From: Planctomycetia bacterium
Lineage (GTDB): Bacteria; Planctomycetota; Planctomycetia; Pirellulales; Thermoguttaceae
Length of the DNA: 64,000 nt
Assembly (NCBI GenBank): GCA_030537455.1
Contig: JAUNMR010000006.1
Span: forward strand, 1-64,000
Direction: 5' to 3'
Shown in pieces: positions 26,821-60,982 of the stretch. Position 1 is the first letter of the stretch; every line of letters begins with the position of its first letter. Made by a program: the position numbers and the translations under genes. The notes under the pieces are model-generated. The model was not told the origin of the DNA. It saw only the letters and a program-made list of their open reading frames with translations, and made no database searches.

Positions 26821-29800
26821 TCATTTCGCGACGTTATCGAGGTCGTCACACAGAACGCGGAAACCGACGTCAAAGACTCTCTGCCAGGGGTAGTAGAAGT
26901 TTTTAAAATCGGCGCTGGCACGATAAGGACGGTCGTGCCAGGAGCCGCCGCGCGCTACATATTGTACCGGACGCTCGTCCATAAACTCGACGCCATATTG
27001 AGGTTTCGCCTCGGTAGAGGTCCACTCCGCCACATTACCGTGCATATCAAAGAGACCCCAGGCGTTCGGCTTGTAATGCCCAGGACGTTCGGAGAGGAAA
27101 CCGTTGTCGCAGAATCGTCGATCTTTGGGAACCCAGTCGTCGTAATAGGTAACGTTCGGCAGTGGGACGCGTTTACGGAAGTAGTTGTCGGAGATGAATT
27201 CAATCAACGTCTGATCGGCAAGATTGGCGTAACTCGAGAAGTCGGCGCCCCAATCACCGAAGTAGAACGGGGTCTTTGCCCCAGCGCGACAGGCGTATTC
27301 CCATTCTCGTTCGGTCGGTAAACGGAAGTTTCGCCCGGTCATTTGTGAGAGCCACTTGCAGAATTGATTCGCTTCCTCCCATGAGACGCGGCACACGGGG
27401 AATTCCGGCTCGTTGACAAAGAAGCCGCGGAAACCGTGGGACAGCCCTTGACGCGACTCCACACGAGAGTCATGTTCCGGATCAAAGACCTCAAACTGAC
27501 GATTAGTCACCTCGAACGCGCCGATCCAGAAGTCTTTACGACAGGTTGCGTTCTCACTGACGTCACCGGGCGCCTTCTTAAAGAGCATTTTAACGTCGGG
27601 GGTCAATGCCACGGTGATCACGTCGCCCAAAACGTCGTCATGTTCAGCGTTGACAGTGATTTTGGCGTCTTTTGGCTTTTCGTTTTGCTTATTGGGGTCG
27701 AATGGAACCAGGTAGGGCTCGCTCATATGCCAGACCTCGGTCTTTTTAGCATGTCGATCCCAGGTATAGCGATTAGGAATTTCCCAACCGACCTCCTCCG
27801 GCTTGCCAGCGGTAAGGACGTCGAGCCGTACATGTTGCTGGTCAAGTCTCTTGCAAAGTTCCTGCGCATCCGGAAAGGCTCTCTTCCCTTCCGTGACGTC
27901 TTTGAGGATCTGTCGTTCCCAATCCGTTGCATTGAGGTTGACCGGAATGGTAATCCATTCGCGTTCGGTAAGCATACCGGAGACCTTGGGGTCGTACGGG
28001 ACGCCGCGCGCTTCTTCGCTTTGGTCGTCAAAGTTAGCGTACAGCTCCAGTAGTTCCTTGCGACGGTTATTCCACTTCTCGACATATTGCGAGCCGGCAA
28101 ATTCAGTCCACGTGCCGTGATAAGGCGTGTTCATATCGATCCATGTAATAATACGATCCCAAGCGTCGACGTCCATTTGTAGACCATAGTGACCGTTGGC
28201 GAGGATCTGATACAACTCCGTGGTATTCGCGGCGAACTCCATGGGATTGAGCAGGAAATAATCGCTTTCAATCCCGGGGCGTCTTACAAAGGCTTGGAGG
28301 TTCATGTAGGAAGTGGAGAAGGTTCCGCAACGATTTCTCGGGTCGCCCATTTGCAACGCAGTGACGAAGTCGCTGATGATATTCCCCCCCGTGAGGTCAA
28401 AGGGCTGAACCCCCCAACCGTGATCTTGACCGTCGTGACAAGCCACGCAGTAGTGATCCAGCACGGGCTGGACGTCGCGTTCAAAAGAGAAACCGCGCAT
28501 CGGACCGTTCCAGGGCCGAATTTCACTCGGCTCGCGGTCGGTAATAAACGCCATACTTTCCGCGGAACTGGTGGAGTTTTCATCTTCGTGACAACCGACG
28601 CAAGAGAGGAATTCTCCCGGCATGGCGGTGAACCAGGAGCGCATCTGTTGCAACGCTTGACCGTTTTCGTCGAGCGGCTGAATCGCGATGGGCACGTTTG
28701 CAGGAACCTTAAAGAGCGCGGAACCGTCTTCGTTCACCGGAACGGTTCCGATAACCTGGCGCACGTCCCAGGGACCGTCGACGCCAATAATCGAGGTAGC
28801 GCCGCCCATCATGGGATAGAGGTAGCTGTAAGAATAGAGCCTGAGGTTCTTAACGGCGCCTCTGGGGACGTTTTTGAGACCGTCGCCAAAGTAAACGTCG
28901 GCGCAGTAGACAGTAGCGTCGTCTTTGTCAAGTTCAACGCGTTCACGTAGCACGGGCGGACGTTCCGTTTCTCTCCAAGGAGTCGGTTCAAAACATGCGA
29001 AGTTTTGCAACTCGGTCAGGAGGTACATATTGTCGAATCGATCAACTAGGTAGACGCCCCACAGCGCGTCGCGATCGGGTTGAGCGGCGACAAGGTAGTA
29101 ATCTTCGCTCAATGGGAAGGGGTGCAAATACTTAGGCCAGCTTTCATCTGCGATATTATCGCCCCAGAGAGTGGAGTGGTACTTGGGATCGGTGCGGGAC
29201 TGTACCTCTTTTGGGAACCCACAGATACGTTCGAGCGCTCCTTCGGTTTCACGACGTCCTTTTTGAGCGTCAAAAAGGATGAGTTCGCCCATACGGGAAA
29301 CGCCATGGTGACCGGTGACGATACAGCAGAATTTAGAATTCGAACCGGGTATTGGTCGCGCATACATCATAGAGACAGGCCAGAGCGAATTAGAGGCGTA
29401 GTATGCGCGCTGATTGGTACCGTCGGGATTCATTTGGAAGAGCAAGCGTCCGGGGACGTGTGGAATATCGGTATACTCCCAACGCAGATACATCACGCGC
29501 CCGTCTTCGGTCAGAGTCGGACACCAGTTGTGCTCTTGGTCGAAGGTTAGACGGCGAATGGAGTTATCCTTCGCGTCAAGGCGGAAGGTATTGGTAACGC
29601 GCGTGGTACCGGAGACGCACGGCACGCCGATGTAACACGCGGTGGAGGTGAAGATCACGGACTCGTCGGGCATGTAGCACGCGTCGTAACTATCGGCGTC
29701 GGGAAAGTTAGGAATAATGGCTTTCATGGCGTCGTCAACGCCCTTACCCTCCTTAGCGGCGTTGAGATCAAGCTCAAAGACGTTCCAACGCCGTTCACGA

Positions 29801-31302
29801 TCCATAGAGGAGACCAACGCTTTCTCGGCGTCGAAATGCAGGTCGATATCGCCGAGGAAGGTCGGATAGTCCGGCTTGAAGAGAGTTGCAATTTCAGGAA
29901 TGACGCTGTCGTCCTCGACGATCTGGCGGTCGACTTCCTCCGGATCGGTCATGTCATAGACAAAGGGTAGATCCAAGGTTTTGAGAGCATCGTCGAAGCC
30001 GTTGGGATTCAGTACGCAGTTACTCTGGTAATTTTGGGGCAGTCCCAAATCACTAGCGTTTCTTTGAACAAAGAGGAGCTGCTGGAAATCAAGGATCGGA
30101 TTAGCCCAGCCGACGCGCGCGTATAGTCTCGCCGCGTCCACGTAGAGCGAGGCGCACTGCTGTGCATTCGCTTCATTAGGTTCCGCAGAAAAATGATCGA
30201 ACGCGACGTTGGCGTCGAACTTAAGTCGCTCGCACTTTTCCAATGTAGCCGCGAGGTAATCAGGGTCGTCGCAGTCTTGACGATAACGTATAATGGCGTC
30301 GCTGGCGCGTTGTAAGACTTGAGCCAATCGTTCTTTTGTTAGAACAATGCGCTCTTGTGCGGGAGGTTGCGCCTGGGATTGATCTTCCGTCGGCTTGACG
30401 ACGACCTTCATATAGACGCGCGTCTCAGCGTTGGGGTCGTCGGTAAGGGTCGCGTCGATGAAGGCGTCAGGCGAATAGGTGAGTTCGTCCGCGAGCGTTA
30501 GAGCAGCGGCGTCGTTACCGAGCGGTCGTTCGGAGGCAATGACCTCAAGTCGCGATTTGGGAACGGTAGCCCAGGCGGTTTCACGAGCAAAGTGATCGCT
30601 AAATGTTTCGCCGCTTTCACGGTGTTCATAACGATCGCGCGCGATGTACTCATACCACCCACCGCTCCAGGGGCTTGGGCGCCATGTGGAGGTCGCCATC
30701 TTAGTCTTTGCCAGCTGGCGCGGTAGATTCCACGAATTTGACATTTCGAACTTTGGCACGATTCTAAAGGCGCTAAAGTGCGGAATATCAGGTGATTTAG
30801 TGCGCACGGTCAGGATATGCACGCCTGGGGGGACGTCGTTGAGGTCGAGCTGATAGTCCCAGGTCGATTCACTCGTGAGCCAACTGCCGTTGGTATTAGC
30901 GAGCGCTTTATCAGTAAGAACATTACCGTCGAATTCCAACGTGACGGGTCTGGAATCACAAGCGGAATAAAAAGCCCAGAGCTGGTAATCACCCTGCTCG
31001 GGAAAATCAATAGCATAGGAGGCGTAGGAATTACTGGCGTCGGGACCGGGAGAGAGCGCAATGTATTTATCGGAATAAGGCAAACCACGCAATTGCAAAT
31101 CGCCTTCTTCGAACCATTCGGCGCGGAACGTGAACGCTTGCGCAAGGTTAGCGTCGGTTGCGTCCTGACCGTCGTCTGCACGACAGGAGGAGCAGTACGC
31201 CACAGTCGCGAGAGTTATGAGAATAAGCAAGAGTCGGCAAAGCGCCAAGAGTCGTCGACGACTCGTCGTTTTACGTACATTCATTTGCATGCCAGCTTCC
31301 AT
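26821..31302 (-). CDS. Giant secreted protein: HZS-alpha-like region, two haem-c motifs and SUMF1-like domain
   Basis: 1493 residues. A signal peptide is followed by a beta-sandwich-like N-terminal domain to about 180. A long middle part reads like the hydrazine synthase alpha / WD40-type beta-propeller region (TYDVIFT-like repeats such as DESVIFTSTACYIG, VMYLRWEYTD). Two CxxCH haem-c motifs lie at 901-905 and 952-956. Residues from about 1255 form a SUMF1/formylglycine-generating-like domain with IGAFEVTN, FRLPTEREWEYACRAG, HGNVAEW and ARGGSW. The Cys pair that true formylglycine-generating enzymes need after GGSW is not there. It should act in the periplasm or outside. Start choice among three ATGs (31302, 31290, 31284) is open. 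This is likely a redox protein; its substrate is unknown. Confidence 0.8.
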   Translation of the reverse strand: MEAGMQMNVRKTTSRRRLLALCRLLLILITLATVAYCSSCRADDGQDATDANLAQAFTFRAEWFEEGDLQLRGLPYSDKYIALSPGPDASNSYASYAIDFPEQGDYQLWAFYSACDSRPVTLEFDGNVLTDKALANTNGSWLTSESTWDYQLDLNDVPPGVHILTVRTKSPDIPHFSAFRIVPKFEMSNSWNLPRQLAKTKMATSTWRPSPWSGGWYEYIARDRYEHRESGETFSDHFARETAWATVPKSRLEVIASERPLGNDAAALTLADELTYSPDAFIDATLTDDPNAETRVYMKVVVKPTEDQSQAQPPAQERIVLTKERLAQVLQRASDAIIRYRQDCDDPDYLAATLEKCERLKFDANVAFDHFSAEPNEANAQQCASLYVDAARLYARVGWANPILDFQQLLFVQRNASDLGLPQNYQSNCVLNPNGFDDALKTLDLPFVYDMTDPEEVDRQIVEDDSVIPEIATLFKPDYPTFLGDIDLHFDAEKALVSSMDRERRWNVFELDLNAAKEGKGVDDAMKAIIPNFPDADSYDACYMPDESVIFTSTACYIGVPCVSGTTRVTNTFRLDAKDNSIRRLTFDQEHNWCPTLTEDGRVMYLRWEYTDIPHVPGRLLFQMNPDGTNQRAYYASNSLWPVSMMYARPIPGSNSKFCCIVTGHHGVSRMGELILFDAQKGRRETEGALERICGFPKEVQSRTDPKYHSTLWGDNIADESWPKYLHPFPLSEDYYLVAAQPDRDALWGVYLVDRFDNMYLLTELQNFACFEPTPWRETERPPVLRERVELDKDDATVYCADVYFGDGLKNVPRGAVKNLRLYSYSYLYPMMGGATSIIGVDGPWDVRQVIGTVPVNEDGSALFKVPANVPIAIQPLDENGQALQQMRSWFTAMPGEFLSCVGCHEDENSTSSAESMAFITDREPSEIRPWNGPMRGFSFERDVQPVLDHYCVACHDGQDHGWGVQPFDLTGGNIISDFVTALQMGDPRNRCGTFSTSYMNLQAFVRRPGIESDYFLLNPMEFAANTTELYQILANGHYGLQMDVDAWDRIITWIDMNTPYHGTWTEFAGSQYVEKWNNRRKELLELYANFDDQSEEARGVPYDPKVSGMLTEREWITIPVNLNATDWERQILKDVTEGKRAFPDAQELCKRLDQQHVRLDVLTAGKPEEVGWEIPNRYTWDRHAKKTEVWHMSEPYLVPFDPNKQNEKPKDAKITVNAEHDDVLGDVITVALTPDVKMLFKKAPGDVSENATCRKDFWIGAFEVTNRQFEVFDPEHDSRVESRQGLSHGFRGFFVNEPEFPVCRVSWEEANQFCKWLSQMTGRNFRLPTEREWEYACRAGAKTPFYFGDWGADFSSYANLADQTLIEFISDNYFRKRVPLPNVTYYDDWVPKDRRFCDNGFLSERPGHYKPNAWGLFDMHGNVAEWTSTEAKPQYGVEFMDERPVQYVARGGSWHDRPYRASADFKNFYYPWQRVFDVGFRVLCDDLDNVAK

Positions 31303-31624: not shown

Positions 31625-32989
31625 ATGACTTTGTCGTCGTTGTTGTCGCCCCGTTTTCGTTCGTCTCACGACGAATCACGTTTCTTTGGCGCGTGCCTCC
31701 TCTCCGGTATGCTGTTAGCGACGCTCTGTCTATTAGTCGTCGTGTCGCCGAGTCTGGCGCAAACGACCAGTAGCGCCACGCGCGCTAACCGCAATTCAGG
31801 CTCGGAATTGGCGCCGATCGCGGACTTTATTAACGCTAAGACGCTCATGGTCGCGCGCTTTGACCTCACGCAGATCGACTACGACGTCCTGGGCGACTCT
31901 TACGACGCGATCTTTCTCCAAGCGCTCCGAACGCTTGGTCTTTCGGAAGATTCTCTCGAGGCATGTGAACGAGAATTTCGCAAGAACGTCGGGACGCTCA
32001 CCGGCGCGCTCTCCACCCAAGTGAATAAGTTTCATACGACCTTCGGGGTCAGCCAAATCTTCTTCGTTCACCAAACGACGCGCGGCGACGGTTCATGCTT
32101 TATCATTCCACTTGGCGACGCCACGGCGGAACAAATCCAAAATCTTAAAGACCTTGCGCAAAAGTTCCAACTCAATAGCGGGGTTTATAAAAAGAACTAT
32201 CTCATCGCGTCAACCGCGCCGCTAAAGGAAATTGGCGACTTCTACAAGGATTTTAAACCAGCGCAAAATAAGGACATTGAGAATTATTTCAAGAGCGCAG
32301 GCAAAAACCTTTTCGTCTTCTATGGAAAGCACGTTAAGATCCGCCCGCTCTTTCTGGAGAACTTTGAGGAGGAATCGACGCGTAGCGGCAGTAAGTCGCG
32401 TCTGGGTCGTGCGCGCAACTTTGACCCGTTCGCTTCCTCGCCGCGTTGCGTCGTTAATCTCATTGAAATTATCGACGCGTCGCTTCTAGAGGTCTCCGGT
32501 TATGTCGACGTCTCTACCCTGAGCGCTTACTATGAACTAAAATTTTCCACCACAATTAATTCCGGCAACTTCCAACGCGAATTGTCCGACACAATCGAAA
32601 ATTTCGTGAACTACTATATCGCTCGTATGCAAGAGGCGAACGAGATTCATCGTAAACAAGCGCTCGATAGCGGCGTTCCAGATGTAACTGGTAGTAATCG
32701 CTTTGACGAATTGCGCGTGTATCAGATCGTACACGAGATTTTGGTCGTTGGTCTGCAAAAGCTTGTTCCAGAACAAAATGAAGCGCGTTTGATCTATGAC
32801 AGTAGCGTTTTAAAGGAGTTCCAGAAACTCGGCGCTAATACCGCCACGATCTCGATTTTAGCGCGTGCCGTTCTTTCCTCCTCTGATAGCAATGCGATTA
32901 GCGTCCATGGACTCAACGACTTGGAAAACCCGTTTAAACCTAAAGCGAGCGAGGAGACAAAGTCGCCTACGCCTTCCGCAAACGAGTAA
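31625..32989 (+). CDS. Secreted protein of unknown function, tandem paralogue 1
   Basis: 454 residues. GAGGA lies about eight bases before ATG 31625. A hydrophobic segment (about 20-46) ending in SLAQ is a signal peptide with a long n-region. I do not recognise a family. The mature protein is mixed alpha/beta and resembles the product of the next gene along its length: an N-terminal hydrophobic/acidic strand (MVARFDLTQ), a helix with FLQAL, an EFRKNVGTL segment, a FGVSQIFFV strand and a late HEILVVGLQKLVPEQ helix. The C-terminal 25 residues are polar and disordered-looking. It is likely periplasmic and may work with its neighbour. Function unknown. Confidence 0.7.
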   Translation: MTLSSLLSPRFRSSHDESRFFGACLLSGMLLATLCLLVVVSPSLAQTTSSATRANRNSGSELAPIADFINAKTLMVARFDLTQIDYDVLGDSYDAIFLQALRTLGLSEDSLEACEREFRKNVGTLTGALSTQVNKFHTTFGVSQIFFVHQTTRGDGSCFIIPLGDATAEQIQNLKDLAQKFQLNSGVYKKNYLIASTAPLKEIGDFYKDFKPAQNKDIENYFKSAGKNLFVFYGKHVKIRPLFLENFEEESTRSGSKSRLGRARNFDPFASSPRCVVNLIEIIDASLLEVSGYVDVSTLSAYYELKFSTTINSGNFQRELSDTIENFVNYYIARMQEANEIHRKQALDSGVPDVTGSNRFDELRVYQIVHEILVVGLQKLVPEQNEARLIYDSSVLKEFQKLGANTATISILARAVLSSSDSNAISVHGLNDLENPFKPKASEETKSPTPSANE

Positions 32990-33046: not shown

Positions 33047-34273
33047 ATGAAAATGAAACGCACCGCTCTTTTCAGCATATTCTTCCTCGTCGGTCTGACG
33101 TCGCTGTGTTTTGGTCAGGCGTCTACGAACGACGACGCAAAGGTCGAGGTTGCCAAACGCGCTTACTCGCGTATTGAACCCTATGTTAATAACGACACTG
33201 ACTTTGTGTGCCGTATTGACCTGGACGTATTTAATACAGAAACGCTCTTCGACACGTTCGACGAAATCTTTGTCAATGCCTTACGTGAGAATAACTTTTC
33301 ACGCGCACACCTTAACGCGGCCAATCGCGAATTTAAAAAGGCTCTCGACAATCTTCGTACAACGCTTCCGAATACACAGGCTTTGCCAGAGCTTTTTGGC
33401 GTGCGTGAAGTCTTTGTCGTGGTTCAGAATCTCGAATCGCCCGCGCCGAAATTCTTTATGCCAGTTGCCGCCAGTAAAAAGGACGCGCTTATCGAGCGGG
33501 TAAAGGATTTCTTCCCAATGGCAACGTGGGTTTCGCTCAAAGGAGGCGTGGGAGGGGTTTTAGACGCCAAACTTGCGGAATCTTCCTTTGCAGGATTTGC
33601 GTCCCAGCCCAACGCTGGTCTAAAGGAATTTCTCACAAGTTCCGCCGGCGCTACGATTCAGGTCTACAGCGGTCGTCTCAAGCTCCAGCCCGCTCTGGAG
33701 CGAATGAGCGCAAGTAACGGCGAATTCAAAAGTTCGCTCGAGAAACTTCCGCCAACCGTTACAAAAGGTCTGCAGGATTTCGACTCCTCATTCCAGGAAT
33801 TTAACCTTGCCGTCGACCTGAACAAACTCACGCTCTCCTACTCTCTGCGCTTTACGACGTCAGCGAAAACGCAATCGGTTCAAAACGGTTTAAACGCGCT
33901 GGTCGACCACATTGTCGACGCCGGTTATGCCGAAGTCAAAGCGGCCTCCTTTATGCCGGAGAACGAAGCAAACGCGCTGACAGGACAGTATGATACCCAC
34001 GCGCTGACGCGTGAGATCCTACGCGGAATTCTCCATAAGCTCGTTCCCACTCGAAAAGACGCGGTTTTGTCCTTCGCCGTAACGCCCGATTCCAAAGAGA
34101 TATTAACTCACCCCTGCGTCTTAGTCGTGGCGGCTACTGTCGTTACGCCGTTGTTGCAATCTGTCCTCGACGTAACAATTGACGATACGCACGACGTCGC
34201 CCCCACAACGGATAAGACCGACGCCAGAGCGAATGATTCCGACGATGAATTCTTCGGCGACGATCCGGAATGA
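33047..34273 (+). CDS. Secreted protein of unknown function, tandem paralogue 2
   Basis: 408 residues starting at ATG 33047 (or 33053). A short signal peptide ends in CFGQ. It aligns by eye with the upstream protein: CRIDLDVFN, FVNALRENNF, REFKKALDNL, FGVREVFVV, and REILRGILHKLVPTRKDAVL near the end. Shared order and spacing support a duplication followed by divergence. The C-terminal 30 residues are very acidic (DSDDEFFGDDPE). The gene follows its paralogue after 57 bp in the same direction, probably in one transcript. No catalytic motif was found. Confidence 0.7.
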   Translation: MKMKRTALFSIFFLVGLTSLCFGQASTNDDAKVEVAKRAYSRIEPYVNNDTDFVCRIDLDVFNTETLFDTFDEIFVNALRENNFSRAHLNAANREFKKALDNLRTTLPNTQALPELFGVREVFVVVQNLESPAPKFFMPVAASKKDALIERVKDFFPMATWVSLKGGVGGVLDAKLAESSFAGFASQPNAGLKEFLTSSAGATIQVYSGRLKLQPALERMSASNGEFKSSLEKLPPTVTKGLQDFDSSFQEFNLAVDLNKLTLSYSLRFTTSAKTQSVQNGLNALVDHIVDAGYAEVKAASFMPENEANALTGQYDTHALTREILRGILHKLVPTRKDAVLSFAVTPDSKEILTHPCVLVVAATVVTPLLQSVLDVTIDDTHDVAPTTDKTDARANDSDDEFFGDDPE

Positions 34274-42713: not shown

Positions 42714-45149
42714 ATGCACATAAACCGTCTTTACCTCGCAACAGCGCATAACCAGTCTCGCGCTCTTATTTCCTCGCCTATTGCACAAAGGTTGGGTCGC
42801 GTAACTGGAGGTTTTGTACTTTTTTTTCTCGTTACGCTACTAAGTAGTTTTAGCGCGCTAGCACACGCCTTTGAAGGGCCGACCGGCCTCATGGTCGATC
42901 TTCTCGAGAAGACCGACGTCGTCTGGCGCGACGGGTACCCGACGCAATTAACACTAGCGGAAATGCCAACGGCGATCGAGCGTCTTCAAATTGCGGAGAT
43001 CCGCTCTTCGCGCCCCTGCTTCTCGTGGATTGTTCCGAGCCTCGGCAAAAATACGCGTCAAACCGCCTGGCAACTGCAACTTGCCTCCTCAATGGCGTGT
43101 TTCTCACAAGACGCCAAAGAAGCGCCTGAGATGTTGTGGGACTCTGGTAAAGTCGTCGACCAAGAGTCGACCGCTCGCGCTTATAGCGCGCAAAAGCCGC
43201 TCGATGGCGGCTCCATTTATTACTGGCGCGTACGCTTCTGGAATCAAGAGGATCAACCTTCTGACTGGTCTGCAATTAAAGCGTTCAAAACCGCTAAGGA
43301 CTGCCAAGACTACGGTATCAGCCGCTACCCTTTAACTAAATTGACGAATCAGCCCGTGGCGTCGCACGATATTGACGGCGGGCAATTCTTCGACTTCGGA
43401 CGCGCGTCCTTCGGTCAGCTCTTCGTTGATATCGACGCCAAGCACGGCGACGTCGCTTTGGTTCGCATGGGCGAACGCGTGAAAGACGGAGCGGTCGACC
43501 GACGCCCGGCGGGTACCACGCGCTTCTGGGAATATCGTCTGGAGCTACTGCCGGGTCGCCATGTCTACGCCATTAAAACGCGCGTAGACAAGCGCAATTC
43601 CTCCGGCGCGGCCTTCCTCTTGCCGGATTACATAGGCGAGGTCATGCCATTCCGCTACGCCGAAATAGAAATTATCTCATCGCCTTCGGAAACAGCCGAC
43701 AGTATTCTTCCCGCTAAAGAGACGACGATACTCGGGGTAACGCGCGAGACGGTCGTCTACCCCTTTGACGAGACCGCCGCGCTTTTCCATTGTGACAATG
43801 ACGATCTCAATCGCGTATGGGATTTGTGTAAGTATTCCATCGCGGCGACGACCTTCGCAGGCGTCTATCTCGACGGCGACCGTGAACGCATTCCCTACGA
43901 AGGGGACGCGCTACTGAACCAACTGAGCCACTACTGCGTCGATCGCGAATATTCATTGGCGCGCTATTCTTTGGATTATCTCGTGTTCCATCCGACTTGG
44001 CCGACGGAATGGAATCTTCAAACCGTTCAAATGGCATGGTTTGATTACCTCTATACCGGCGATTCACGCGCAATTGCACAACTCTACGACGACCTTCGAG
44101 CCAAGTCTCTGGTAGCGCTTGCGGAAGAGAACGGTCTGATTAGCACGCGTAAGGGTAAACTCACAAAAGAAGTTCTCGATTCGATTCACTTCAAGGGAAA
44201 CGGATTCCGCGATATCGTCGACTGGCCTCATAAGGGTTTGGCGGGTAATGACAACGCCGAATCGGGCGAAACCGACGGCTTTGTCTTCTGCGATTTCAAC
44301 GTCGTTGTGAACTCCTATCATTTCTTCGCGCTTAATTCGATGCGTCGATTTGCGCAGATTCTTGGTAAAACAGAGGACGAAAAATTCTTTGCCGATCAAA
44401 TCGCTAAACTCCAGCAATCGTTCCACGAAACGTTTTTCGACGCTTCCCGTGGCGTCTATCGCGACGGCGAAACGACCGATCACGCCTCGTTACATGGCAA
44501 TATGTTCCCATTAGCGTTCGGATTAACTCCCAGTGAAAACGTAGCAAGCGTGACAGAATTTGTGGAATCGCGCGGTATGCGTTGTAGCGTTTACGGCGCA
44601 CAGTTTCTCCTCGACGCCGCCTACCAAGGGGAAAACGGCGCTTACGGTCTGGAACGTATGACAGCGCAAGACTTGCGCGGTTGGCTCAATATGCTACGCG
44701 TAGGCTCAACGATTTCCCTAGAAGCCTGGGACGACTGCTATAAACCGAATCAAGATTGGAATCACGCTTGGGGCGCCGCACCGGCTAATATCATCCCGCG
44801 CAAATTGGTCGGAGTTGAACCACTCGCGCCAGGTTGCGCTGAAATTCAGATCAAGCCACAGATCGCTAATCTAACGGAAGTCGTCTCGGTCGTGCCGACG
44901 ATTCGCGGTTCCGTGGAAATCAAAGTTTCACAAGAGTTGGACAAAAAGAACGTCTATCGTTTGCAAGTGAGAATTCCCGGTAACGTCGTTGCAACGGTCT
45001 ATCTTCCCTACACAGACGATTCCGATACGTTGCTCATTGACGGTCGACCTGCCAAGGAGGTCGTCGATGGAATCGAACATGTCGGCGCTTTCTGGAAGAT
45101 CCCCAAGATAGGTTCTGACGTGTGGACCTTCGAACGCATCGCCCCCTGA
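42714..45149 (+). CDS. Exported alpha-L-rhamnosidase-like protein (GH78)
   Basis: 811 residues. An AGGA lies eight bases before ATG 42714. A hydrophobic segment at about 28-50 is the signal peptide. An Ig-like N-terminal domain contains YYWRVRFWNQEDQPSDWS, the usual GH78 opening. The (alpha/alpha)6 catalytic domain follows with YLDGDRERIPYEGDAL (387-398 includes the conserved D-x-x-R-E), and a C-terminal beta domain that is commonly GH78-C. Family members release rhamnose from plant polysaccharides and glycosides. The usual Trp after RERxx is replaced (RERIPYEGD), so specificity may differ. Convergent with fliA, sharing a terminator. Confidence 0.85.
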   Translation: MHINRLYLATAHNQSRALISSPIAQRLGRVTGGFVLFFLVTLLSSFSALAHAFEGPTGLMVDLLEKTDVVWRDGYPTQLTLAEMPTAIERLQIAEIRSSRPCFSWIVPSLGKNTRQTAWQLQLASSMACFSQDAKEAPEMLWDSGKVVDQESTARAYSAQKPLDGGSIYYWRVRFWNQEDQPSDWSAIKAFKTAKDCQDYGISRYPLTKLTNQPVASHDIDGGQFFDFGRASFGQLFVDIDAKHGDVALVRMGERVKDGAVDRRPAGTTRFWEYRLELLPGRHVYAIKTRVDKRNSSGAAFLLPDYIGEVMPFRYAEIEIISSPSETADSILPAKETTILGVTRETVVYPFDETAALFHCDNDDLNRVWDLCKYSIAATTFAGVYLDGDRERIPYEGDALLNQLSHYCVDREYSLARYSLDYLVFHPTWPTEWNLQTVQMAWFDYLYTGDSRAIAQLYDDLRAKSLVALAEENGLISTRKGKLTKEVLDSIHFKGNGFRDIVDWPHKGLAGNDNAESGETDGFVFCDFNVVVNSYHFFALNSMRRFAQILGKTEDEKFFADQIAKLQQSFHETFFDASRGVYRDGETTDHASLHGNMFPLAFGLTPSENVASVTEFVESRGMRCSVYGAQFLLDAAYQGENGAYGLERMTAQDLRGWLNMLRVGSTISLEAWDDCYKPNQDWNHAWGAAPANIIPRKLVGVEPLAPGCAEIQIKPQIANLTEVVSVVPTIRGSVEIKVSQELDKKNVYRLQVRIPGNVVATVYLPYTDDSDTLLIDGRPAKEVVDGIEHVGAFWKIPKIGSDVWTFERIAP

Positions 45150-48881: not shown

Positions 48882-51800
48882 TCAGAAGGAGTACGTCGTT
48901 CCGACCGACCCCATGTGCGAGGTGGTTTTGTCAGAGGTAAGGAAGTCGTATCCGGCGGTGATCGCCCAGCGACGTTCGCAATCCAAGTACCCGCCGGCGC
49001 TCACTCCTGCTTCAATAAAGGAGTCGCCCTGGTCGAGACCGGTAACGGTCGCATAAGTTGTGGTATTAGCGCCCGACATTTGCACGTTCATGGTCGGAGC
49101 GGCGTCGCCGGAGATCATGTAGCCATAGAGCGCGCGAGCGCTAAACAGTAGGTATTCGACGTTGTAATCCATCTCGACGCCTGCGCGTGCGAAGATTTGA
49201 TTCCAGTCGGCGCTGTCATATCGTAGCGCCATTCCATCGCCATTTTCCACCGCCTCGTCCAACCAAGCTTGCTGCATGTCGATTTGCACGACAGGTCGCA
49301 ACGTCGTCCATGCGTCGTAAGCGAATGGTTTCGAAAGATTTAACGCCACCGCCAAGGATTGACCGTCGTAGTTCGCTCGATGAAATTCACTCTGTTCGCC
49401 GAAATTGAGCGTTCGTTTACTCGTGTAATCTTGTAACCCGCCGCCGATATAGAACTTCGCGTCAATCGCGTTGAAGAGTTGACCGCCGGCGTAAGCGCCG
49501 AGTTGGAAATTGGAAGCGTGGATTCGCGTGTCGTGCGAGGTCAACTTCGGTTGAGCGTAACCAAAGACCAAACCGCCGATCCAGCCGGAATTTTGGAACG
49601 CTTCGTAGCCCAGATTCATTCCGACGTCGCTGATATCGAAGCCGTCGGAGACGCCGTCGGCACGCGCCTCGACGCCACGATAAGTCGAGGAAAACCACAC
49701 GTTACTCGGGTTTCCCAGCAACGCCGTCCCGGAGCTATAGCCTTGAGCATATTGCGAACCTTGTCCCCATGCAAGATAGGGAGCGGGCGCGTAGTAACCG
49801 TCATTGTAGAGCTCATAGGCCTGACCGCGATAAGTCGCGTAGTTCGTCTTACACGTTGCAGTGCCAGCGCCGTTACGCCCGCCGCGTCCTGCGCCATTGC
49901 CCAAGTGATTAAACGCCTGACGCCACGGCGAATTCATCGCCAGGTTAATCGCGTTGGCATGTTGCGCGCCGGCAATAGTTTGCAAAGCGTTCGACACGCT
50001 CGTTTCATCAGGCAACGCCAAGAAGGTCTCGAGCGACTTTTGCAGAGACTCTTCCAGGTTCTGAGCGTCGTTCAGTTGGTCGACGTACTGAGCGATTGCG
50101 GTCTGATTCTTATTCTTAGCGTAAATGGTCGAATTTTTACGCACGCTCAAATTCAACAAAAGATCGGTTCCGTCTTCTGAAACTTCCGTTGACAGATTGT
50201 AGAAGGCGCGCGATTCCGTAGAAGCGCTAAAGACGCTCTTGTCCGAATCGGTTTGTACAAGCAGGTTGGAGTAAGTCCCGTCTTCTAAGTCAAGGAGATT
50301 TGAAATTTTAATCAGACTTCCTTCTTGCAGATTAGCGACGCCGTCGCCGGAGAGCACGACCTTACCGCATGAGTAGGCGTCTTCGCTAAACTCCACGTTC
50401 ATAACGCTTCCGCTTTCGAGCGTCAAGTTGGCGCCCTCGGACAGGGTCAATGGCGAATCGACGACAAGATTCAGGTCAGAACCGTCTTGAAAGATCATCG
50501 ACTTGGCGCGAACGTTATGACCTCCGGAATAGGACGCGCTATCTTTAAAGACAATCGTGTCAGCGCCGAGCGCTTGTGCGCTACTTTGCGTACTATTGAC
50601 AACAGTGGTTCCGTCAAAGGTCAAGGTATATCCCGCCTCTTGGTAGAGCGCGCCCTGACCTGCCAAATTGATCGTACCTGCGCCAAAGGTAGCGTCAACG
50701 CCCATAATCTGCATCTGAGCGAAATCGTCTTCGGCTTGATCGGCTTTACCGATCGTAATGACAGACGAGTCCGAGGTAAACTTAAGTCCACCGGCGTTTT
50801 GAGAAGATTCCAGTAGGACCAATCCCTTTTGCAAATCAAGCTTGTTCACAGAGATCGTTGATTGTTCGAGGGTATGCACGGCATAGCTTTCTCCCTCGTT
50901 TGCATCGGCATTGATCGTGAGATTAGTAGCCGTAAGCGAGGAAGCGCCGTAACCATTGACTTGACCGCCGCTTACAGTAAGATTCGTCACGCGCATCGAC
51001 GCCGTTGTACTGGTCTGCTCCGCCACGCCGTTGGTTAGAATTTGTCCCTTGCCAAGATCCCACGTGCCAATCGTCGTCCCCTTGCTGGCAACGGCAGTGT
51101 TAACGAATTCGAAGAAGGAGTCCGTGTTTTCCAAATTCACCGACATTGTGCCCGAGACATAGAAAGTACCGCCGGAGGTTAGACTTGCGCTCTTGTCGTC
51201 GTCTGAGGCGCCGACCGACAGATAGAGTCGACTCGCGTAGAGACCACCGTCCTCGCTAATACTCGAATCGTCGTTCCAGCGCACGCCTAAAGTCGTCAGA
51301 GACGTGCTCGACAATGTTCCGTCCTCCGAAGCGGAGGCGTACATGTATCCGTTCAAGGACATTCCGCCGTCCAAATAGACGTCATATCGACCGGTACTCG
51401 TAGCGGTTCCAGCGTCGTCAAATTTAGTAGACAGCCCCGTGATTTGAAGTCGACCGGTCTTTTCAAGGGTCAGATTACCTGTCTCGGCGTCCTCGCCATA
51501 AATGCGTAATCCGCCCAGAACGACGTTTGCCGCGCTACGCGTCGTCTCGCTGGCAATCGTCAGGTTAGCTCCGTTGTTGTCCCCGCCGAGCGTCGCCAGT
51601 TGGCTAATCTCCACACTGGCTGTGTCGGCAAAGGTTGCGTTGCACAGGGTCGACCATTCTTCCGCTTGCAAGGCGCCGGCAATAGTGAGCAGACCATCGG
51701 CGCCAGAACCGCCGTTCATCATAACAGCGCCGGTCGCGGTAAGCTTTGCAGTAGAATTGTCGGTATACACGCCGAAATAGGCTCGATTTTCCGCGCCAGG

Positions 51801-52628
51801 GGCATTATAAATCGACACAACGCCACGGTTGAGAAACTCTCCATCGCCGTCAAGCGCCGCGCCTGTTGACAGATTGTCTTGTGAACCTATAGTCACCTGA
51901 CCGTTACTGTAGACGACCACGCCACGACGCGCGTTTTCTTGCGACGTGCCAAGGTTGAATAGTTGCGCCTGAGCGTCAACTTGTACCAGACCGGCGCCGC
52001 TTTCTGCGCCAATTTCGAGCAAACCGCCCGAACCAATGAACAAATTGCTATTCGCGTTTAGAATCAAGGCAGAATCGGAAGAGTCGCTTGCGCCGGCGAC
52101 AATCAGAAAGCCCTGAGAAGCGTCATTCTCCTGCCCCAGTACAACGCGACCGGCGTCGGAGACCGTCAGAGTGACGCCAGATATGGAATCGCCGAACACG
52201 GTCGACTCTTCATCCAGCACGTCCAAATAGGCGGTTGCGCCATTGGTTACGGCGATTGTTCCGCCATTTGTAATCGTCGTGGCGCCCTTGGCGTCGTTGA
52301 GACCGTAAGCGTATGTAGAGCTATTGAGCGTGAGGTCTGTGGTGGCGTCGACGTTAATATTAACGCGAGAATCTGTCGGCTCGTCGTTCGATTCCTCGCC
52401 GTCGACCATAGAGGCTTGGTTATCCGACTCGGCGTTGGACGTGGTAAAGCTCAAATCGAGATCAGCAATCAAATCCTCGTTCTCTTGCGCGTAACAAGCG
52501 GCGCTCACAGGAGCTACAGCGTGAGTCGCCTCGCCCAGCGTACTGAAGAAAAACGCGACTCCCGTACACGTGGCGCCAAATAGAATACGGCGTAAAACGT
52601 CAATTGTGCGGCTGTGTTGCTTGCTCAT
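48882..52628 (-). CDS. Autotransporter-type protein (type Va secretion)
   Basis: 1248 residues from ATG 52628, which has GAGAGA upstream and gives a long signal peptide ending near CYAQ. An upstream ATG at 52694 adds 22 residues. The passenger (to about 940) is rich in Gly, Ser, Thr, Asn and Ala with repeated beta-helix-like turns (LTLEKTGRLQITG, GGTFYVSGTMSV). A short helical stretch (LNDAQNLEESLQKSLETFLALPDE) leads into a C-terminal barrel of about 270 residues ending in TTYSF; a terminal Phe is the usual outer-membrane-protein signal. The barrel (DISDVGMNLGYEAF, WIGGLVFGYA) matches the autotransporter beta-domain. It should be surface-exposed or secreted. Passenger function is unknown. Confidence 0.85.
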   Translation of the reverse strand: MSKQHSRTIDVLRRILFGATCTGVAFFFSTLGEATHAVAPVSAACYAQENEDLIADLDLSFTTSNAESDNQASMVDGEESNDEPTDSRVNINVDATTDLTLNSSTYAYGLNDAKGATTITNGGTIAVTNGATAYLDVLDEESTVFGDSISGVTLTVSDAGRVVLGQENDASQGFLIVAGASDSSDSALILNANSNLFIGSGGLLEIGAESGAGLVQVDAQAQLFNLGTSQENARRGVVVYSNGQVTIGSQDNLSTGAALDGDGEFLNRGVVSIYNAPGAENRAYFGVYTDNSTAKLTATGAVMMNGGSGADGLLTIAGALQAEEWSTLCNATFADTASVEISQLATLGGDNNGANLTIASETTRSAANVVLGGLRIYGEDAETGNLTLEKTGRLQITGLSTKFDDAGTATSTGRYDVYLDGGMSLNGYMYASASEDGTLSSTSLTTLGVRWNDDSSISEDGGLYASRLYLSVGASDDDKSASLTSGGTFYVSGTMSVNLENTDSFFEFVNTAVASKGTTIGTWDLGKGQILTNGVAEQTSTTASMRVTNLTVSGGQVNGYGASSLTATNLTINADANEGESYAVHTLEQSTISVNKLDLQKGLVLLESSQNAGGLKFTSDSSVITIGKADQAEDDFAQMQIMGVDATFGAGTINLAGQGALYQEAGYTLTFDGTTVVNSTQSSAQALGADTIVFKDSASYSGGHNVRAKSMIFQDGSDLNLVVDSPLTLSEGANLTLESGSVMNVEFSEDAYSCGKVVLSGDGVANLQEGSLIKISNLLDLEDGTYSNLLVQTDSDKSVFSASTESRAFYNLSTEVSEDGTDLLLNLSVRKNSTIYAKNKNQTAIAQYVDQLNDAQNLEESLQKSLETFLALPDETSVSNALQTIAGAQHANAINLAMNSPWRQAFNHLGNGAGRGGRNGAGTATCKTNYATYRGQAYELYNDGYYAPAPYLAWGQGSQYAQGYSSGTALLGNPSNVWFSSTYRGVEARADGVSDGFDISDVGMNLGYEAFQNSGWIGGLVFGYAQPKLTSHDTRIHASNFQLGAYAGGQLFNAIDAKFYIGGGLQDYTSKRTLNFGEQSEFHRANYDGQSLAVALNLSKPFAYDAWTTLRPVVQIDMQQAWLDEAVENGDGMALRYDSADWNQIFARAGVEMDYNVEYLLFSARALYGYMISGDAAPTMNVQMSGANTTTYATVTGLDQGDSFIEAGVSAGGYLDCERRWAITAGYDFLTSDKTTSHMGSVGTTYSF

Positions 52629-52845
52629 GATATTCTCTCTGCTCGCGTTTAAGACCTCGGCTATTGCTCTAATGGAACAATCCGGCGCATCCATACGCCG
52701 TTATAATCATTAATATCGACCTCATCGTTAAGGGATTGAGTAAAAATTGAGAAAAGTTTAAAAAAAGTCTCAAGATATAATTCAAAAACGCCGCAAGGGG
52801 TCAATCGTCACGCGTTCTAGGGGCGTTTGCGCACGTACTAACGTT

Positions 52846-58064: not shown

Positions 58065-59384
58065 TTACTCTTCAAAGAGTCGCTTCATGCCCTCGAAGCT
58101 CTGCTCAAACGAGGCGCCCTCGTCGACGTTCTGTCGTAAGAATGCGTCGATTTTAGGCTTCATTTTCACCGCGTCGTCAATCTCTTTTGAGCTTCCGGCA
58201 CGATAAGCGCCGATAGAAATTAAATCTTCCGCGTCACGATATGTGCCGATGAGCTGTCGCACGCGATTAGCCATTTCCAAATGCTCGCGTGTGCAGATCG
58301 ACGTTGTGAGTCGACTCACGCTATCGAGCACGTCAATCGCGGGATAAAAGCCTCTGGCGCTTAGCTTTCGCGACAGCCAGATATGCCCGTCAAGTAGCCC
58401 GCGAACGGCGTCGCAAATTGGATCCTGCTGATCGTCACCCTCGACTAACACCGTAAAGAACGCCGTTATACTACCATTTTCACTACGTCCTGCGCGTTCA
58501 ACTAACTTCGGTAAACTCGTGAAAACACTGGGAGTATACCCTTTGGTAGTCGGCGGCTCTCCAGCGGCCAGACCAATTTCACGCTGTGCCATGGCAAATC
58601 GCGTAAGGGAGTCCATGAGAAACAAGACGTTCTTGCCCTGGTCGCGGAAATACTCCGCAATTGCCATCGAGGCATAGGCGGCGCGCACGCGCATTAAGGG
58701 CGGTTCATTAGAGGTCGACGCCACCACCACGCTCTTCTGTCGCCCCTGAGGTCCAAGTTCACGATCAATAAAATCGTTCACTTCACGACCACGTTCGCCA
58801 ATAAGCCCCACAACGACAACGTCTGCGTTGGTATAACGCGTCATCATGCCCAAGGTGACGCTCTTACCGACGCCGGACCCTGCAAAGACGCCAAGACGCT
58901 GTCCCTGGCCGCAGGTCAATAGCGCGTCAATGGCGCGTACGCCGGTGGAGAGAATCGTGTCGATACGCGGTCGATCGCACGGTTCCGGCGGTTTGCGGTC
59001 GTAACGCGTTCGTACGGTCAAGGCTGGGGTAGCGCCGGAGTCGATTACATGACCAAAACCATTGACCACACGTCCGAGCAACTCCTCGCCTACCGCAAGC
59101 CACGGCATGGTTTTGACAAGTTCAATCTTCGCGCCACGTCGCACTCCGGTGAGATCCGAATAGGAATACAGTAGAGTTAAATTATCACGAAACCCAATGA
59201 CCTCGGCGAGAAGCTCTTCGGAATCGTCGTGTCGTTCCACGCGCGCAATAGCGCCAATGGGGGCGGAAAAACCAACCGCAGCGATCGTCATGCCCTCGGT
59301 GCGCACAACGCTACCGATAATTCGCGCAGGCGCAACGCTTTGGACTTGCTCCAAAATATAATTGAGGAAATGTGAATTATCCAT
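58065..59384 (-). CDS. fliI: Flagellum-specific ATP synthase
   Basis: 439 residues from ATG 59384, the normal FliI length; a start at 59462 would add 26 unrelated residues and overlap fliH. Walker A AGSGVGKS lies at about 168-175. The F1/FliI-type signature is LMDSLTRFAMAQREIGLAAGEPP, and Walker B is VLFLMDS. It energises the flagellar type III export gate as a hexamer. FliH (its regulator) is encoded 19 bp upstream in the same operon. The C-terminal tail is short and charged. Confidence 0.96.
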   Translation of the reverse strand: MDNSHFLNYILEQVQSVAPARIIGSVVRTEGMTIAAVGFSAPIGAIARVERHDDSEELLAEVIGFRDNLTLLYSYSDLTGVRRGAKIELVKTMPWLAVGEELLGRVVNGFGHVIDSGATPALTVRTRYDRKPPEPCDRPRIDTILSTGVRAIDALLTCGQGQRLGVFAGSGVGKSVTLGMMTRYTNADVVVVGLIGERGREVNDFIDRELGPQGRQKSVVVASTSNEPPLMRVRAAYASMAIAEYFRDQGKNVLFLMDSLTRFAMAQREIGLAAGEPPTTKGYTPSVFTSLPKLVERAGRSENGSITAFFTVLVEGDDQQDPICDAVRGLLDGHIWLSRKLSARGFYPAIDVLDSVSRLTTSICTREHLEMANRVRQLIGTYRDAEDLISIGAYRAGSSKEIDDAVKMKPKIDAFLRQNVDEGASFEQSFEGMKRLFEE

Positions 59385-59403
59385 CTTACGTCTGTCCCCG
59401 ACT

Positions 59404-60345
59404 TTAATGCGAAAGTTCGTCGACAATACGTTCCAGTCTCGCCTCAAGTCGTTCGTCCACAACGCCCAAGGAAGTTTCCACCAGGCATCCTCCGCGCGAG
59501 ACTTTGGGGTCTGGTATTAATTCAGATTTCGCAAGACAGCCCGTCTCTTCTAGAAGATTGTTAATCGGTTGCTTTAATGCGTTGACGTCGCGCGGGTTCA
59601 TACGAATCTTTAAGCTGGTACAATTCATTGCCAGCTCTAACGCCTCGCGCAATAGATCCAAGGGCGCTTCACGCGCAATACTCGGTTCTCGCATAATCGT
59701 TTGATAGGCGATCGCCGCGGCAATTTGCAGGATATTCTCTTGCCAATTCTGCAGTAAGGCATGACGCGCGCCCTTAAGCTCACGAATGAGCTTATGGAGC
59801 GGCTGAGTCTCCGTGTCGCAGAACTCTTGTACACGCGCTTGAGTTTGTCGTTCGACCTCCTCTTGCAACTCCTGACGCGCCTGCTCTTTGCCTAGCTCCA
59901 GTCCTTCGGCTCGCCCCTGTTCGCGTCCCGCGGCAAGACCTTCTTTTCGCGCCTGTTCAAAAGTCGCAGTTTTTAATTTTTCCTGCTCTTGTTCCAGTGT
60001 GACCGCAAGCTGATCGAGTTCCTCCTCTCTGTGACGCACAATGTCAATTTGCCGCTGTAACTCCTCGCTACGGCTAGCAAGACGTTGGTCAAAATCCGCT
60101 TGTAAGCGTTCGACTTGCTCGTGTGCGCGCGCAATAATCTTGGCGGCTTCCTCATTAATCTTTTTCAGAAAAAGATTTGCGCGTCGTTCTAGCTCTTCGA
60201 AATTATCCTGGTTACGCTCGGCGGCGCCACGATTGGTAAAGGCGCCCGTTAGCTGGTATTGTGACGCTTCAGGCAATTGGAACTCTACAGGCTCCGGTCG
60301 CGCCGGCTCGCCCGGTCTGGAAGAACGATTACCGTCTTTACTCAT
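59404..60345 (-). CDS. fliH: Flagellar assembly protein FliH
   Basis: 313 residues from ATG 60345, which overlaps the fliG stop by 8 bp. Residues 40-170 are a long Glu/Gln/Arg-rich coiled coil with AAGREQGRAEGLELGKEQ (the Gx3G-like helix typical of FliH/YscL). The C-terminal 130 residues (AIAYQTIMREPS, LKIRMNPRDVNAL, RGGCLVETSLGVVDERLEARLE) match the V-ATPase E-subunit-like domain that holds FliI. It is longer than E. coli FliH (about 235). It should bind FliI and guide it to the export gate. Translation coupling to fliG is likely. Confidence 0.9.
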   Translation of the reverse strand: MSKDGNRSSRPGEPARPEPVEFQLPEASQYQLTGAFTNRGAAERNQDNFEELERRANLFLKKINEEAAKIIARAHEQVERLQADFDQRLASRSEELQRQIDIVRHREEELDQLAVTLEQEQEKLKTATFEQARKEGLAAGREQGRAEGLELGKEQARQELQEEVERQTQARVQEFCDTETQPLHKLIRELKGARHALLQNWQENILQIAAAIAYQTIMREPSIAREAPLDLLREALELAMNCTSLKIRMNPRDVNALKQPINNLLEETGCLAKSELIPDPKVSRGGCLVETSLGVVDERLEARLERIVDELSH

Positions 60346-60913
60346 GTTCAGTAACCAACCTGTTGAGAACGTTTTCAAATTGACGACACGCTAAAGCTGG
60401 ACGCTTTAAACGGCGCATGAATTCTGTTGTTTCCGCACGCGTCTGTTCGCACAAAAGATTTAACGCCCCTAACCGGTACGATTGTTTCAAGCGCGCGAGT
60501 ATCGCGGCGATAACCGCAGGTCGTTCGTTTTTTAACCTATTAGCCAACAACGTACAACCCATGTTCTGTGCGCTGAAATCGTCGTCAGAGGCGCCAATGC
60601 TGTGGCGCGCAAGATTAACGCATTGCACAAATTGCGGCGCAAGTCTGAGCGCTTCTGGGTCTTCGTTCATTGCGTCGAGGAATAGCGCTATCACGCGCTG
60701 AAGTTCCTCTTGAGAAACGTCGTCAATTCGACTGGCCTCCAGCGCAATCTCTTTTGCGACCTGCGGTTCGAATGACGCCAAAAGAGCGTCGGCGGCGTCC
60801 GGCTCCAAACAGGAGAGAAATAACGCAACGTTGCGCGCTCCTAGCGCAGAGAGGGACGACGGCGTCTCGTGTCGTGGCGTTAAATAATCGGTTTGAATCT
60901 TTTCAGACGTCAT
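60338..60913 (-). CDS. fliG: FliG-like protein lacking the C-terminal torque domain
   Basis: 191 residues. Residues 25-95 match FliG-N (VALFLSCLEPDAADALLASF, VSQEELQRVIALFLDAM), and 125-170 match the FliG middle domain (LKNERPAVIAAILARLKQ, where NERPA stands for the usual EHPQR-type motif). The protein stops there: the C-terminal domain that carries the charged residues contacting MotA is absent, and no frameshifted remainder follows, as fliH begins at once. FliG normally has about 330 residues. It sits exactly where fliG belongs, between fliF and fliH. It may be a structural adaptor, with a full-length FliG encoded elsewhere. Confidence 0.8.
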   Translation of the reverse strand: MTSEKIQTDYLTPRHETPSSLSALGARNVALFLSCLEPDAADALLASFEPQVAKEIALEASRIDDVSQEELQRVIALFLDAMNEDPEALRLAPQFVQCVNLARHSIGASDDDFSAQNMGCTLLANRLKNERPAVIAAILARLKQSYRLGALNLLCEQTRAETTEFMRRLKRPALACRQFENVLNRLVTEHE

Positions 60914-60982
60914 ATCGACATGTGGTTAAGACGCCAAGAGCGCGCGTGAATTGCGTCAAGGCGATTAGTTATTGTTCAAATT

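Follow-up and report, generated by a model that had tools for sequence, protein, structure and literature searches.

A secreted planctomycete protein that joins a predicted di-haem hydrazine synthase alpha-like core to a degenerate SUMF1-type domain

To our knowledge, hydrazine synthase (HZS) has been described as an enzyme without relatives and of unexplained origin. What, then, does a protein with an HZS alpha-like core do in a planctomycete of the family Thermoguttaceae? The gene in question lies within the first 64,000 nucleotides of contig JAUNMR010000006.1 (assembly GCA_030537455.1, Planctomycetia bacterium); this whole stretch is called the window here. It occupies positions 26821-31302 on the minus strand and is open over 1493 amino acids. 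A prediction made from the DNA letters alone (the original prediction) had described its product as a giant secreted protein with an HZS-alpha-like propeller, two haem c sites and a SUMF1-like domain without the catalytic Cys pair, and this overall observation was confirmed. We consider that the protein may be a secreted, glycan-bound di-haem c-type oxidoreductase of the HZS-alpha superfamily (rough probability 0.5), in which haem alphaI would carry out the chemistry, haem alphaII would transfer electrons and the SUMF1-type domain would serve binding or assembly.

The HZS-alpha fold and its haem sites

A Pfam search assigned residues 815-906 to PF18582 (HZS_alpha; 104.4 bits, E 4.9e-30, cut-off 26.6) and residues 1250-1483 to PF03781 (FGE-sulfatase/SUMF1, where FGE stands for formylglycine-generating enzyme; 121 bits, E 7e-35, cut-off 23.3). 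Both profiles, which had been proposed as a check of the original prediction, are therefore far above their cut-offs. Structure prediction, proposed as a further check, recovered the HZS-alpha and the SUMF1-type folds as well. For this purpose, residues 380-1493 were modelled with AlphaFold from 59 sequences, the window protein and fetched loci (mean predicted local distance difference test, pLDDT, 82.8; predicted template modelling score, pTM, 0.86). The best match of this model in the Protein Data Bank (PDB) was chain A of 5C2V, the HZS alpha subunit of Kuenenia (Foldseek E 5e-24). When 5c2v_A was superposed on the model with VIA-align, 559 residues were aligned with a Z of 31.0, a root-mean-square deviation of 3.1 Å and 19% identity. 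Since the aligned part spans model positions 26-692, i.e. residues 405-1071 of the protein, the HZS-alpha fold covers the propeller and the middle domain as well as the haem alphaII domain. The propeller had been recognized from the letters alone, but this was incomplete, as homology covers the entire alpha subunit, including the two haem domains in the same order. The PF18582 score and the presence of propeller, haem alphaI and haem alphaII in this order place the protein in the HZS-alpha superfamily.

From N- to C-terminus, the protein consists of a signal peptide, a CBM35/6-type module (CBM, carbohydrate-binding module), a helical linker, the HZS-alpha propeller, the HZS-alpha middle domain with haem alphaI, the haem alphaII domain, a linker and the SUMF1-type domain. 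The features are as follows:

26821..31302, minus strand: whole gene, 1493 amino acids (open reading frame, Pfam, structure models)
31177..31302, minus strand: predicted signal peptide, residues ~1-42 (hydrophobic stretch read from the sequence)
30739..31143, minus strand: CBM35/CBM6-type beta-sandwich, residues ~54-188 (AF2 model, PDB matches)
28963..30090, minus strand: HZS-alpha-like beta-propeller, residues ~405-780, end approximate (5c2v_A superposition)
29122..29679, minus strand: invariant propeller set C542, C562, H591, W593, C594, H615, H665, H666, H727
28585..28860, minus strand: HZS_alpha middle domain PF18582, residues 815-906 (Pfam, 104 bits)
28588..28602, minus strand: CVGCH 901-905, equivalent of the haem alphaI site (phmmer to 5c2v_A, HzsA alignment)
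28435..28449, minus strand: CVACH 952-956, equivalent of the haem alphaII site (phmmer to 5c2v_A, HzsA alignment)
28189..28191, minus strand: His1038, probable distal ligand of haem alphaII (alignment)
26848..27645, minus strand: SUMF1/FGE-type domain, residues ~1220-1485 (PF03781, structural matches)

As read from the sequence, the true start of the 1493-residue protein may be Met5 or Met7.

Both CxxCH motifs were found where they had been predicted, CVGCH at 901-905 and CVACH at 952-956. In a phmmer search of PDB sequences, CVGCH aligned with CSGCH of Kuenenia HZS alpha, and the second pairing, in the same order, was that of FERDVQPVLDHYCVACHD with FRRDIQPILDAKCAMCHD of the same protein. Conservation of the motifs among homologues, a further check that had been proposed, was complete: none of the 73 full-length relatives, which come from several phyla and are down to ~43% identical, lacks either motif, and the two have a spacing of 50-52 residues. 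Because of this conservation, chance does not account for the motifs and domains, and two covalently bound c haems are predicted from them. The genome also encodes a ResB/CcsA-type cytochrome c maturation protein of 2369 residues (contig C31), so haem can be attached. The latter protein is unusually large (L179:6615-13724): ResB is close to its N-terminus, and the CcsA-type Cytochrom_C_asm domain follows ~1900 residues later, close to its C-terminus.

The haem surroundings were compared with those of true HzsA. The column of the ligand Tyr591, which is Tyr in all 12 HzsA loci (CxGCHxGSY), holds Asn909 in the window protein; judging from this replacement, haem alphaI should carry an ordinary His ligand. 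A His-ligated haem alphaI has likewise been inferred for other homologues (PMC12758564). At the column of the zinc-site residue Cys303, which itself occurs in only some of the 12 HzsA, the window protein has Asn638. In HZS, haem alphaII has alphaHis772 as its distal ligand. His1038 lies one alignment column away from this residue, and haem alphaII is probably bis-His in the clade of SUMF1-fused proteins. Invariant in 73 of 73 fused proteins are C542, C562, H591, W593, C594, H615, M624, H665, H666, H727, E897, both CxxCH motifs and H1038. Cys562 recurs in all 15 paralogues from the same genome that were tested, and a His at 665/666 does so too, apart from small shifts; true HzsA has neither. 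The invariant His and Cys residues of the propeller are candidates for the wall of an active site that faces haem alphaI. In summary, the window protein resembles HZS alpha of Kuenenia stuttgartiensis (5C2V) in its propeller, its middle domain with haem alphaI, its haem alphaII domain and, at the level of the alignment, a His near the place of alphaHis772. Unlike it, the window protein has no equivalents of alphaTyr591 and Cys303 and no adjacent beta or gamma genes, and it adds CBM35/6-type and SUMF1-type domains as well as the extra invariant His and Cys residues in the propeller.

The SUMF1-type domain and the N-terminal module

The C-terminal domain has the profile and the fold of SUMF1, but not the catalytic Cys pair of FGE, which we take to be C336 and C341 in human numbering. 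Its structural matches were 2y3c (a Treponema variable protein), PvdO, PorK, CarF and FGE, with Z values of ~20-25 (20 for human FGE), and the PDB titles include mutants of both C336 and C341. As predicted, HGNVAEW and GGSW are present and the Cys pair is missing: in the GGSW frame, D1457 and A1462 occupy the positions of C336 and C341. Both catalytic Cys residues were found in 0 of 72 relatives, and the EgtB-type iron site HxxxHxE in 0 of 73 fused proteins. The HDS motif at 1277-1279, in turn, is invariant and specific to the SUMF1-fused clade. The domain shares the SUMF1/FGE-type fold with SUMF2, PvdO, GldK/PorK, CarF and the Treponema variable protein; unlike all of these, it is fused to a di-haem HZS-alpha core and carries the clade-specific HDS. 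By analogy with SUMF2 or PorK, a non-catalytic role in binding or assembly is likely.

A lone Cys was observed at the C341-like position in L083, L094, L100, L118, L128, L132, L133, L134 and L140, and at the C336-like position instead in L127. This Cys in a minority of the fused clade is a possible relic of the FGE site.

To characterize the N-terminal part, a second model was computed with AF2 for residues 40-399 (mean pLDDT 84.6). It contains a confident beta-sandwich, and among PDB entries the top rows were modules of the types CBM35, CBM6 and CBM36, or enzymes that contain such a module. Z values reached 14.4, with CBM35/CBM6 modules or CBM-bearing glycoside hydrolases as the best rows. 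The predicted fold is that of CBM35/CBM6 modules of xylanases and glucuronic-acid binders (Z 14 to the CBM35 structures 4qaw/4qb2). Unlike these modules, the domain is attached to a cytochrome and not to a hydrolase, its own sequence gave no significant Pfam CBM match, and its binding to glycans is predicted. The aligned regions of the relatives L091 and L114 match PF03422 (CBM_6) at 3e-13 and 3e-7. Within the fused clade the N-terminus is variable: it is of the CBM35/6, LamG/ConA, F5/8-C or DUF4960 type, or there is no module. From the model we infer a glycan role for the module. The original prediction had overlooked this domain and had not considered glycans. Its interpretation was therefore supported in part: the scaffold, the haems, the degenerate SUMF1-type domain and the exclusion of hydrazine synthase stand, whereas the domains, the family and the link to glycans were incompletely covered.

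Paralogues, phylogeny and earlier reports

The window protein is not a one-off, as the gene has paralogues in its own genome and its clade extends across several phyla. The host genome (3.7 Mb, 90.7% complete) has as its nearest named relatives Thermoguttaceae and other planctomycete metagenome-assembled genomes from ruminant gut samples. It contains PF18582 at 16 loci. All 16 proteins have at least two CxxCH motifs, and four, including the window protein, have a SUMF1-type domain. Among the other 15 paralogues we found NPCBM (2), F5/8-C (2), DUF7402 (3, two of which are also weak F5/8-C matches), LamG (1) and a 3-keto-disaccharide-hydrolase-type domain (1). If the window protein is included for its CBM35/6 fold, 10 of the 16 proteins carry a module of the glycan-binding type, which is a raw count. 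Tandem pairs of alpha genes are common among the loci. A further genome of the same family, a single contig of 4.8 Mb, also has a SUMF1-alpha homologue (L159).

PF18582 was present in 65 of 294 drawn Planctomycetota genomes, mostly with one or two copies per genome in the true-HzsA families and with 8-16 copies in a few lineages; it was found in none of the other families drawn from the HzsA-bearing order. A scan of public genomes detected relatives with core and SUMF1-type domain in Planctomycetota, Hydrogenedentota, Verrucomicrobiota, Kiritimatiellota, Lentisphaerota and Armatimonadota. One more record is labelled Gammaproteobacteria, but its contig may have been binned wrongly. The phylogeny against anammox HzsA that had been proposed was calculated from 114 cores (LG+C20, SH-aLRT). 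The SUMF1-fused proteins, the window protein among them, form one clade with 100% support (83 rows), apart from true HzsA, which is a separate 100% clade. Six rows of the fused clade lack the SUMF1 motif, and each of them is cut by a contig end. In the simplest reading of this tree, the fusion of HZS alpha and SUMF1 would have arisen once and then spread broadly.

A wider family of HZS-like enzymes with other substrates has already been proposed (PMC10732223), and few alpha homologues have been reported, with clade I lacking alphaHis772 (PMC12758564). The HZS-alpha family outside anammox bacteria is thus already known from these two papers, and the SUMF1-fused clade is a variant of it. Like the homologues of clades I-IV (PMC12758564) and the hzs-like genes (PMC10732223), the window protein has a non-anammox HZS-alpha scaffold with a canonical haem alphaI and has lost alphaTyr591. 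Unlike PMC12758564, we describe 16 loci in one genome and a SUMF1-fused clade in several phyla, and most members tested here, unlike clade I, keep a His near the place of alphaHis772. When the main texts of PMC12758564 and PMC10732223 were searched for SUMF1, the term occurred in neither. In the open-licence literature, no paper combined hydrazine synthase with formylglycine-generating, although earlier descriptions elsewhere are possible, and only four general metagenome surveys combined hydrazine synthase with carbohydrate-binding module.

These results show that proteins with the HZS alpha scaffold make up a large family, found in bacteria from gut and sediment both within the Planctomycetes-Verrucomicrobia-Chlamydiae (PVC) group and outside it. 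A genome can have as many as 16 loci, and the putative pocket, which is invariant, is not the same as in HZS. The family may reveal the ancestry of the anammox enzyme, and since it is large and has a distinct putative pocket, the question of the ancestral reaction is directly testable with single proteins.

Proposed function, alternatives and gene surroundings

In the reading that we prefer, the protein would be exported to the periplasm or cell surface and attached through its CBM to a polysaccharide or glycan. Haem alphaI, ligated by the His of its own CxxCH rather than by Tyr as in HZS, would be the site of a redox reaction, under the face of the propeller that is lined with invariant His and Cys. 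Electrons would enter or leave through the probably bis-His haem alphaII, and the SUMF1-type domain would act in binding or assembly and not as a formylglycine generator. The extracytoplasmic redox role suggested earlier on the basis of the domain set appears to be right. The two leading candidates for the substrate would be a carbohydrate or a small product of a beta-gamma-like partner. We put forward only tentatively that the SUMF1-fused proteins constitute a new class of haem enzymes which act, outside the cytoplasm, on glycans or on products derived from glycans, with HZS as a specialized offshoot of an older, carbohydrate-linked di-haem family of the PVC group. If the link to glycans is true, polysaccharide use would involve a haem chemistry of a new kind.

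Several observations weigh against a glycan-bound oxidoreductase. We know of no activity for any non-anammox member of the family, and there is no carbohydrate operon around the window gene. An N-terminal module is missing from many of the clade's short members, which means that the core reaction does not require glycan binding. In favour of this oxidoreductase, some fused genes in other phyla adjoin GH36/GH31, GH95, sulfatase, BNR, PQQ-propeller or secreted Gfo/Idh/MocA genes, and a few of these neighbours lie within 60 bp on the same strand, the PQQ-propeller gene in three loci only. The secreted Gfo/Idh/MocA genes (12 of 55 fused-gene loci) are often on the opposite strand, which makes the linkage weak. 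Moreover, the frequencies of neighbours and modules are raw; as genes of these kinds abound in PVC genomes, the frequencies give weak support. That the invariant His and Cys residues face haem alphaI is read from the alignment, not from coordinates.

The window gene lies between metG, which is probably unrelated to its function, and an unrelated divergent gene; this arrangement is kept in the genus and gives no clue to what the protein does. The original prediction had also argued from missing beta and gamma genes. Indeed, there are none in the window, and hzsB and hzsC are not beside the gene; genome-wide the argument fails, as there are two fused beta-gamma-like genes with a propeller and a CCP-type di-haem part, L178:8894-10765 on contig C19 (CCP_MauG, 33.1 bits with hmmscan) and L180:14640-16940 on contig C68. 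In the main alternative to our reading, the window protein would serve as the alpha component of an HZS-like enzyme with two active sites and a fused beta-gamma partner in trans, whose gamma site would supply a reactive small molecule for use at haem alphaI. The substrate of such an enzyme may be some nitrogen compound, different from the NO/ammonium pair. The beta-gamma-like gene on C68 is only ~3.1 kb away from a SUMF1-alpha paralogue, and co-location of alpha and beta-gamma outside anammox bacteria has been reported (PMC12758564). In a verrucomicrobial locus (L109:7839-15140), a SUMF1-fused alpha gene is followed by a second alpha gene (4 bp overlap) and a fused beta-gamma gene (88 bp gap), so that all parts of an HZS-like set occur together in a bacterium that does not belong to the anammox group. 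In L130, a beta-like match follows closely downstream of the fused gene. No such gene was found near the window gene or in most loci examined with their flanks, and both alphaTyr591 and the zinc-site Cys303 are absent, so that we regard this two-site enzyme as rather unlikely. A true hydrazine synthase alpha, and thus a hidden anammox bacterium, would also account for the fold, both haem sites and the beta-gamma-like genes, but it is rejected, with hardly any probability left to it. The equivalog NF052339 gave 42.3 bits against a cut-off of 800, and these values, together with the missing Tyr591, are firmer grounds for the earlier claim that the protein is not hydrazine synthase. Furthermore, CHxGSY is kept in 12 of 12 HzsA while the fused family has other residues at Tyr591, HzsA forms its own clade, and the relatives come from a gut setting.

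Two alternatives dispense with catalysis at haem alphaI or shift it to the C-terminus. The two c-haem motifs, the export signal and the many paralogues in a gut bacterium would suit a surface cytochrome that purely transfers electrons, as a conduit or a store; tens of invariant polar propeller residues beyond the haem ligands fit a substrate pocket better, and we consider such a cytochrome improbable. The PF03781 score would agree with a formylglycine-generating or ergothioneine-type SUMF1 enzyme to which a cytochrome is attached. The relatives, however, lack the Cys pair and HxxxHxE throughout, and this alternative is very improbable; an active FGE was rejected on the residues D1457/A1462.

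Other genes of the window were noted as well. Divergent from the gene studied here, at 31625-32989 and 33047-34273 on the plus strand, two adjacent and apparently paralogous exported proteins without Pfam matches are encoded, and this pair is kept beside the gene in most genus loci examined. An alpha-L-rhamnosidase (42714-45149, plus strand; PF17389 with Rha78A-type domains) is encoded ~11 kb away. A 1270-residue protein (48882-52694, minus strand) has the autotransporter beta-domain PF03797, which is unexpected in a planctomycete. At 58065-63595 on the minus strand, a FliI/EscN-type ATPase and a YscJ/FliF-type ring protein belong to a gene cluster for flagellar or type III export.

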